DNA of 64,000 bases from Paludibacterium sp. (lineage in GTDB: Bacteria; Pseudomonadota; Gammaproteobacteria; Burkholderiales; Chromobacteriaceae), in contig NZ_JAFAND010000117.1 of assembly GCF_019232825.1 (NCBI RefSeq), positions 1 through 64,000 of the forward strand, read 5' to 3'. This document shows, in pieces, positions 31,631 through 33,715 of the stretch. The notes under the pieces are model-generated. The model worked only from the letters and a program-made list of their open reading frames with translations, ran no database searches and had not been told where the DNA came from. Each line of letters opens with the position of its first letter. Within the stretch, counting starts at the first letter, position 1. The position numbers and the translations under genes are program-made.

Positions 31631-31891
31631 TCAGGCCTCCAGGAGCGCCTTGACCACGTCGACGTAGCCCTGCATGGCGTCGTCGGCCGACGTGCCCTTG
31701 AGCTTCTCCCATGCGTCGAACTTAGCGCGGTTGATGAAGTCCATCGCGCCCGGGCGATCGCCATGCGCGTCGCCGTCGGTGGCTTGCTTATACAGCGCGT
31801 ACAGCTTCAGCAGCGTTTGGTTGTCCGGGCGCTCGGCCAGGGTTTTGACGTCGGCTTGCGCCTTGGTGAATTGTGCTTGCAGATCGGACAT
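31631..31891 (-). CDS. Acyl-CoA-binding protein
   Basis: An 86-residue four-helix acyl-CoA-binding protein that buffers long-chain acyl-CoA in the cytoplasm. It carries the family signature LLKLYALYKQATDGDAHGDRPG and the AKFDAWEKLKG helix. An AAAGGAG site precedes the ATG. Such proteins are common in eukaryotes and scattered in proteobacteria. It lies upstream of the ABC-F gene with a 156-base gap, so no functional link is implied. Confidence 0.9.
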   Translation of the reverse strand: MSDLQAQFTKAQADVKTLAERPDNQTLLKLYALYKQATDGDAHGDRPGAMDFINRAKFDAWEKLKGTSADDAMQGYVDVVKALLEA

Positions 31892-31902
31892 GCCTACTCC
31901 TT

Positions 31903-31939
31903 TGTGTTATGTGTTAGCCCATGTGTTATGTGTTAGCCC
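31903..31939. repeat. 19-base tandem duplication
   Basis: TGTGTTATGTGTTAGCCC occurs twice in a row with a single A between (31903-31920 and 31922-31939). It sits immediately upstream of the acyl-CoA-binding protein gene, so a slippage duplication in its leader or promoter is likely. Confidence 0.85.
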
Positions 31940-31970
31940 AACGCGCGTTAGGGTCCGTCGTCAGGTGTTC

Positions 31971-32058
31971 GGCGCAATGCCGCGCGTTGCGCGCCGATTG
32001 CGCCCTACGCAACGGCACCCCCCTTCGCGTAGGGTGCACTCGCCGAAGGCAGTGCACC
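31971..32058. repeat. Dispersed two-palindrome intergenic repeat, diverged copy
   Basis: Two adjacent palindromes, GGCGCAAT/ATTGCGCC (31971-31978, 31997-32004) and GGTGCACT/AGTGCACC (32033-32040, 32051-32058), the second with loop CGCCGAAGGC. The architecture and loop resemble the copies near 9.8 and 20.4 kb, though the arms differ. Confidence 0.65.
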
Positions 32059-32106
32059 GCCAAAAGATTGACAGACAGGCCCTAATATACACGAAATATG
32101 CACATT

Positions 32107-32877
32107 TCATCTTGCGGACGGCGCATCGCCCTCCGCCTGCCAAGCCCTTAACACACCGGGCAAAAACGGCCGCGCGGCGGCGGGCAAACCCGCGAGGCTC
32201 AGCACCCGGCCGTCCGGCGTCAGTAGCGCCGGCAACTGCCCCGCCGCCAGGATATCGGCACCAGGCAGCACATACAGCCGCAGGTCCCGCCGCCGCAGCA
32301 ATACCTGCCGCAACGGCTCGGCCGCGTTCGGATCATCTCCGGTCAACAACGCCGCGGCGAATCGTCCCTCTCCATGCACATCGGCCGGCGTGGCGTCGCG
32401 CATCAGCCGCTGCCAGCGCGCGCGCGCGAACTCATCCGCATGCGCCTGGGTCAGATCGCGCCCGTCGCTCACGTCGAGTAAGCGCCCCCAATACACGCCG
32501 CGCCGCGCCGGATCGGCGTACACGATCTGGCCATGCGGCAAGAACACCTCCTCCAGCCCGTCGAGCGACGCGTGCCGATGGCCGGCCGCCGCCATGCCGG
32601 CGGCGAATAGCGACGGGCTGGCGGCGCGCCGGCATTCGCCGTCGCACACGATCAGGTAGCGGCCGCGGGCCGACAAGTAACCGATCCGCCGGTTGGGCAA
32701 CGTCAAGCGCCGCAGCCCGCCATCGACCGGCGCCGGCGTTTGCGCGGCCTCACGCGCGCGCGCCAACATGGCGCTCTCCCCTGTCGAGGGCGCGGCATCC
32801 GGGGGGTGAAGCGAGCAGGCGCCAAGCAGCCAGGGCACTAGCCCCATGCTGGCGATGAACAGGTCAAGTCTAGCCAT
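32107..32877 (-). CDS. DsbC-like lipoprotein lacking the catalytic CXXC
   Basis: A 256-residue predicted lipoprotein (lipobox LLGAC, Cys21). Residues 111-157 align by eye with the DsbC dimerisation domain of the neighbouring gene: HGQIVYADPARRGVYWGRLL corresponds to GNQIVYADQKLDYLFVGDLI. Further on, LLTGDDPNAAEPLRQVL takes the place of FTDPDCPFCHQL, so CPFC is replaced by PNAA, and LPALLTPDGRVL matches the cis-Pro region TPALVFGNGRLV. It therefore looks like a redox-dead DsbC paralogue. An extra N-terminal segment (GYLSARGRYLIVCDGECRR) may be another dimerisation-domain-like unit. Its role is unknown; a chaperone or regulator of DsbC is possible. Confidence 0.7.
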   Translation of the reverse strand: MARLDLFIASMGLVPWLLGACSLHPPDAAPSTGESAMLARAREAAQTPAPVDGGLRRLTLPNRRIGYLSARGRYLIVCDGECRRAASPSLFAAGMAAAGHRHASLDGLEEVFLPHGQIVYADPARRGVYWGRLLDVSDGRDLTQAHADEFARARWQRLMRDATPADVHGEGRFAAALLTGDDPNAAEPLRQVLLRRRDLRLYVLPGADILAAGQLPALLTPDGRVLSLAGLPAAARPFLPGVLRAWQAEGDAPSAR

Positions 32878-32974
32878 GGTGCGCGGATTCTAGACCGGCG
32901 CGCGCGGGCATTCCTGAGGAACAATTAGGCGAGAATCGCCAGCCATGGGTGCATGGCTGGCGAACGGGCGGGAA

Positions 32975-33715
32975 TTACTTGGCGTCGAGCAGCTGTTCCA
33001 GCTGCGCTTTGGGGATGGCGCCCGCCACAAGGCGGCCGTTGCCGAACACCAGCGCCGGCGTGCCGTTGACGCCGAGCTTGTCGCCCAGCGCCAGGTTGCG
33101 GTCGATCGGTGTGTCGCACGCGTCGTCGCCGGACGGCTTGACGCCGTTATCCATCCAATCGCGCCACGCCTTGAGGCGGTCGGGGGCGCACCAAACCTGC
33201 TTGGCCTTGTGCATCGCATCCGGATGCAGTTGGGTCAGCGGGAACAGGAAGGTGTAGATGGTGACGTTATCCACACCGGCCAAACCCTCTTTCTCCAGCT
33301 GATGACAGAACGGGCAGTCCGGATCGGTGAAAATCGCCAGCTTGCGCGCGCCGTTGCCGCGCACTTCCTTGATGGCGTCGGTCAGCGGCAAGACATTCCA
33401 TGCCACGCGGTTGAGCTCGGCCTGGCGCGCCTCGGTCAGGCTTTGGCCGCTTTTCACGTCGATCAGGTCGCCGACGAACAGATAATCGAGCTTCTGATCG
33501 GCGTAGACGATCTGGTTACCCTGAACGTCGATCTCATAGATGCCCTTGAGCGGCGTCACGCGCACCGCCAGCACTTGGCGGTCGGTGAAACGCTGCTCGA
33601 AAGCTTTTTTCACCGCGGCAAGCTGGGCGTTGCCGTTGTTGTCGGCGTTGGCGCCGCAAGACAACAGCGCCGGCAAAATCCCGGCCACTGCCAGGCGAAT
33701 CAGGGTTTTGTTCAT
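32975..33715 (-). CDS. dsbC: Thiol:disulfide interchange protein DsbC
   Basis: A 246-residue periplasmic disulfide isomerase. After a signal (the track start at 33922 lies inside the upstream gene; ATG 33715 is used), an N-terminal dimerisation domain (about 45-105) is followed by a thioredoxin-like domain. The active site is DCPFC (Cys134, Cys137), the cis-Pro is in NGTPALVFGNG, and a second Cys pair in VWCAPDR and DACDTP matches the structural disulfide. It rearranges wrong disulfides in exported proteins. The signal contains LLSCG, so a lipoprotein form is conceivable, although cleavage after ANA is also possible. Confidence 0.93.
   Translation of the reverse strand: MNKTLIRLAVAGILPALLSCGANADNNGNAQLAAVKKAFEQRFTDRQVLAVRVTPLKGIYEIDVQGNQIVYADQKLDYLFVGDLIDVKSGQSLTEARQAELNRVAWNVLPLTDAIKEVRGNGARKLAIFTDPDCPFCHQLEKEGLAGVDNVTIYTFLFPLTQLHPDAMHKAKQVWCAPDRLKAWRDWMDNGVKPSGDDACDTPIDRNLALGDKLGVNGTPALVFGNGRLVAGAIPKAQLEQLLDAK

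Follow-up and report, generated by a model that had tools for sequence, protein, structure and literature searches.

Why should a genome that keeps an intact dsbC carry, directly behind it, a second DsbC-like gene whose product has lost the usual active site? DsbC is a bifunctional disulfide isomerase/chaperone, and DsbD is its electron donor. We addressed this question in a contig of Paludibacterium sp. (NZ_JAFAND010000117.1, positions 1 to 64,000; this whole stretch of 64,000 nucleotides is called the window below). In the window, dsbC (32975..33715, minus strand) is intact and keeps its CPFC motif. The second gene, which encodes a DsbC-like putative lipoprotein, starts 97 bases downstream of dsbC and lies at 32107..32877 on the same strand. 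Its ORF is intact from the ATG to the stop codon and is 256 amino acids long. A DsbD gene was also found in this genome, and thus the normal isomerase pathway exists there.

The gap between the two genes contains a perfect inverted repeat (32937..32962, minus strand), which forms a strong RNA hairpin (z = -4.5 for folding stability) and is not followed by a long T tail. It may be a weak terminator. No second copy of this repeat was found within the window, and our scan revealed no sigma-70-like promoter for the lipoprotein gene. In G002, another species of the genus, the T run behind a terminator-like hairpin ends right at the start codon. An antisense ORF of 394 amino acids (31674-32858, plus strand) was also considered, but it was taken as a high-GC shadow ORF because the homology sits on the minus strand. 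As for DsbC of the window itself, its signal peptide (33656-33715) has L-L-S-C at residue 20, which is a possible lipobox, together with an ANA site of the signal peptidase I type. The signal peptide of DsbC in G002 has the same two features.

Relationship with DsbC and the usual active site

The lipoprotein is homologous to DsbC, as the earlier note had read from an alignment by eye. The Pfam profile DsbC_N (PF10411, gathering cut-off 25 bits) matched it with 36.2 bits (E = 4.6e-9), and the orthologue in G002 scored 42.3 bits. BLASTP against the adjacent DsbC gave 34% over 82 amino acids (E = 9e-11). We also scored both proteins with an HMM of about 46 DsbC proteins from the family and the order, every one of which has CxxC; the lipoprotein obtained 40.0 bits and its G002 orthologue 53.7 bits. 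When a profile of the orthologue pair (residues 96-205) was compared with DsbC using hhalign, the match covered residues 101-202 with E = 7.8e-17. Among the other searches with the lipoprotein, Pfam gave no thioredoxin domain, a PDB sequence search gave no match, and NCBIfam gave no match at E up to 10, the DsbC equivalog NF008129 included. The last result is a weak test of the lipoprotein, since NF008129 gave the genuine DsbC of the same genome 79 bits against a cut-off of 215.

The alignment was expected to extend over both the dimerisation region and the thioredoxin-like core. This held for the dimerisation region and for the first beta-alpha-beta of the core, where the significant match ends at residue ~203, but not for the remainder. 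Further on, the similarity is weak, and the helical insertion of about 55 residues, which leads from the second core strand of DsbC to its cis-Pro strand, is gone. In the profile, an L-P-A-L strand of the lipoprotein stands opposite T-P-A-L in the cis-Pro loop of DsbC, with weak similarity. The last 50 residues compared with the C-terminal strands of DsbC (PALLTPDGRVLS / PALVFGNGRLVA) also keep the register, and there too the similarity is weak.

The CXXC of the usual active site is lost. The alignment sets CPFC of DsbC opposite P183-N184-A185-A186 of the lipoprotein (32320..32331, minus strand), exactly the replacement that had been claimed. The G002 orthologue likewise has no CXXC, and no DsbC proper without CxxC was found among the relatives examined. 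The proposed lipobox could also be recognized. Residues 1-21 (32815..32877, minus strand) have the pattern, judged by eye, of a signal peptide ending in L18-G19-A20-C21, and this motif is kept in both species, as LGAC in the window and LCAC in G002. From this pattern, the protein is predicted to be exported as a lipoprotein, lipidated at C21 and located at a membrane.

Domain layout and the cysteine pair

All the following segments lie on the minus strand. The dimerisation domain of DsbC is retained in the lipoprotein, according to both the sequence and the single-chain models. It is represented by a DsbC_N dimerisation-type domain at residues 88-144 (32446..32616), which was found by Pfam, the HMM and hhalign. 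A predicted linker helix (residues 143-161, 32395..32451), which aligns with DsbC, comes next, and a reduced thioredoxin-like core follows at residues 166-250 (32128..32382). The core was recognized by AlphaFold2 and Foldseek, and its later half is weak by sequence. In front of the dimerisation-type domain, an additional DsbC_N-like segment occupies residues 32-84 (32626..32784) according to hhalign and AlphaFold2.

The AlphaFold2 model, which received two DsbC rows as input and left out the G002 orthologue, had a pLDDT of 70 and a pTM of 0.62. The folding alignment was restricted to the N-terminal part of DsbC because the C-terminal half came out misaligned when MAFFT was run with DsbC of full length. 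In this model, a helix at 32-46 and three strands to 77 were followed by a helix at 88-97 with four strands to 135, the linker helix at 143-161, and a beta-beta-alpha-beta-beta-beta-alpha arrangement ending at 250. Foldseek matched it below 1e-3 with only two PDB entries, DsbC (1jzd) and a DsbP-type isomerase (4mly). The TM-scores were low (0.37 and 0.23, respectively, by query length), which was attributed to a different domain arrangement. DsbP, the second-best fold match, is a plasmid-borne disulfide isomerase, and its PDB entries (4ml1, 4ml6 and 4mly) represent oxidised and reduced isomerase states, whereas the lipoprotein is without the usual active site. In the single-sequence model, both N-terminal units stayed (pLDDT about 70-85 at residues 31-80 and 121-150), but the C-terminal core was not predicted and Foldseek found no significant PDB match. 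In the structure prediction, which the earlier note had proposed as a check, the order of elements and the match with 1jzd agree with DsbC in the first model, and the C-terminal core is missing from the second.

The lipoprotein probably carries two consecutive DsbC_N-type units. Residues 53-79 of the additional segment were aligned with DsbC_N in the right register (hhalign E = 2.7e-4). None of 2000 shuffles reached the score of the window segment; the same control was weaker for the segment of the G002 orthologue alone, where 27 of 2000 did. The pLDDT of this segment was 84-88 in the AlphaFold2 model, which had no alignment depth there, and 72-79 in the single-sequence model.

The mature protein has three cysteines, namely C21 of the lipobox and two in the first unit, C78 and C82. 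The latter form a CX3C motif (C78-D-G-E-C82, 32632..32646, minus strand), which is also present in the G002 orthologue (CANSC). AlphaFold2, which is confident in this region, placed them just past a strand of the first half-repeat. Because of this pair, the term redox-dead, which the earlier note had applied to the whole protein, is established for the usual active site only.

Distribution, constraint and possible decay

The gene was found in two of the six species of the genus that we examined, the window species and G002. Both copies occupy the same slot, between dsbC and an acyl-CoA-binding-protein gene, and so the position beside dsbC, already pointed out from the window, is common to the two species. 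In G001, G003, G004 and G005, no gene was present in the slot and the two flanking genes were directly adjacent. A profile search of about 830 genomes from the family (61), the order (399) and the class (369) gave no full-length relatives outside the genus. A GTDB pattern scan and searches of plasmids, phages and viral contigs gave none either. The distant matches that we examined were DsbC proper and covered about residues 95-203. The gene is a local, fast-changing, lineage-restricted offshoot and not a widespread system. Conserved loss of CXXC among many relatives, for which a survey had been suggested, was thus not observed, as the sole orthologue found has a premature stop.

An ORF resembling the TonB type occupies this slot behind dsbC in other genera of the family (L030, 3300-4020, minus strand; L031, 5030-5730, plus strand; L032, 4730-5500, plus strand). 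We considered a hidden homologue in the slot of such genera (genomes G006, G015 and G010), but the ORF there was unrelated and TonB-like. It seems that the slot behind dsbC accepts different genes.

A fully supported clade unites the window species with G002 and G003. Within this clade, the concatenated tree paired G003 with the window species at 64% and the dsbC tree did so at 96%, and G003 is probably the closest species to it. Therefore, the gene was probably lost in G003. Since one sister species has only a broken copy of the gene and another has none, it is probably dispensable.

The main rival to a functional protein is a decaying dsbC duplicate, that is, a pseudogene in progress without present function, whose ORF happens to be still uninterrupted in the window species. 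We regard this as possible but somewhat unlikely. Such decay would be in line with the single in-frame TAG of the G002 copy, the four empty slots, the loss of the catalytic site, and the long branches, with an identity between the two copies of 39% compared with 68-86% for the neighbouring genes. It would also be in line with the GC3 of the G002 copy, which is 0.65 and below that of its neighbours (0.75-0.78). However, the GC3 of the window copy (0.83) is normal when judged in the same way, by the neighbouring genes. In addition, a frame of about 250 codons has stayed free of frameshifts in two diverged species, and the lipobox, the CX3C pair and the DsbC_N core have been conserved. Between the two copies, codon position 3 differs at 146 of 233 sites and position 2 at 103 of 233 (P = 5e-5). 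The NG86 method gave a dN of 0.63 and a dS of 2.19, the latter being near saturation. This position-3 excess and the dN/dS indicate constraint over a good part of the gene's history. The protein has been under purifying selection for much of that history, more weakly than its neighbours. In the collections searched, no relative carried the gene as an intact ORF, which the earlier note had named as evidence against its own reading; the codon constraint argues, nevertheless, for a once-functional gene.

The lipoprotein may be a paralogue in the strict sense, a copy of the adjacent dsbC. The best tree sets it apart from the resident dsbC on a very long branch, but grouping it with the resident dsbC was not rejected (AU test, P = 0.23). 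The separation in the best tree and the patchy distribution would also suit horizontal transfer, in which a distant DsbC_N lipoprotein was acquired and inserted behind dsbC instead of arising from it. We consider such a transfer highly improbable, because the placement cannot be relied on with such long branches and a skewed composition, the AU test allows the resident grouping, no donor-like relative appeared in the genomes, plasmids, phages and viral contigs, and the location directly beside dsbC suggests tandem duplication.

Possible roles of the lipoprotein

Three fates had been put forward for this protein: a pure chaperone, a modulator of DsbC, and a decayed duplicate. Taken together, the evidence tilts towards a module that once had a function and has become dispensable. 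Our preferred reading, which we hold with roughly even confidence, is a fast-evolving, lineage-restricted, non-isomerase offshoot of DsbC that acts by binding and is dispensable. After export, the protein would be lipidated and stay attached to the periplasmic side of a membrane. It retains the dimerisation-type fold and the linker helix of DsbC, probably with a second DsbC_N-like half added in front, and ends in a shortened thioredoxin core. As this core has no CXXC, the protein can neither isomerise disulfides at the normal site nor receive electrons from DsbD there. Most likely, its role would instead be to hold unfolded envelope proteins, or to pair with DsbC or its clients, near the membrane. 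The C78-C82 pair would then presumably form a structural disulfide.

Compared with DsbC, which consists of DsbC_N and Thioredoxin_2 domains and is exported, the lipoprotein has DsbC_N, the linker helix and the first beta-alpha-beta in the same order and is likewise predicted to be exported. It differs in having no CXXC and no helical insertion, and in its extra N-terminal half-repeat, lipobox and CX3C pair. The chaperone activity of Escherichia coli DsbC is independent of CXXC (Liu and Wang 2001, as cited in PMC4960241), and that of Helicobacter pylori DsbK (HP0231) does not need CXXC either (PMC4960241). The CXXC mutants of DsbK are dimeric Dsb proteins without a working CXXC that are still chaperones. 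Unlike the lipoprotein, however, they were engineered from an oxidase and have a DsbA-type catalytic domain. TraF of the F plasmid has a thioredoxin-like domain without CXXC and accompanies the redox-active TrbB (PMC11315126). TraF and TrbB resemble the lipoprotein and DsbC as a pair of one CXXC-less and one redox-active protein, but TraF belongs to a conjugation system and the likeness is an analogy only. The part of DsbC that is left in the lipoprotein is its binding half. Since CXXC is not needed for the chaperone activity of DsbC and DsbK, and considering the precedent of TraF, the most likely function would be to bind clients or DsbC at the membrane without catalysis. Tandem dsbC pairs are also present in another family of the same order (G100, G144 and G184; loci L075, L076 and L077), as adjacent genes of which one per pair has a lipobox-like signal. 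We did not accept them as parallels because both copies are full length with CPYC/CPFC.

It is rather doubtful that the protein represents a new architecture, with two DsbC_N-type units, a shrunken Cys-free core and a CX3C pair in the added unit, which would serve as an anchored chaperone, an adaptor or an alternative redox partner of DsbC. It is very unlikely that the protein is a redox or metal-binding lipoprotein with C78-C82 in place of the DsbC active site: these are the only non-lipidated cysteines, kept in both copies and lying just past a strand of a confidently predicted half-repeat, but conservation between two sequences is weak evidence, a structural disulfide accounts for the pair equally well, and both residues lie outside the thioredoxin-type core.

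The confinement of the gene to one small clade limits the weight of either a functional or a decaying gene. If it is decaying, the locus would be a snapshot of an isomerase duplicate whose active site disappears before the gene itself does. If the non-catalytic offshoot that we prefer has a function, it would show a disulfide isomerase converted in nature into an envelope protein without catalysis, and the two tasks of DsbC, binding and redox chemistry, could be studied separately within one organism.
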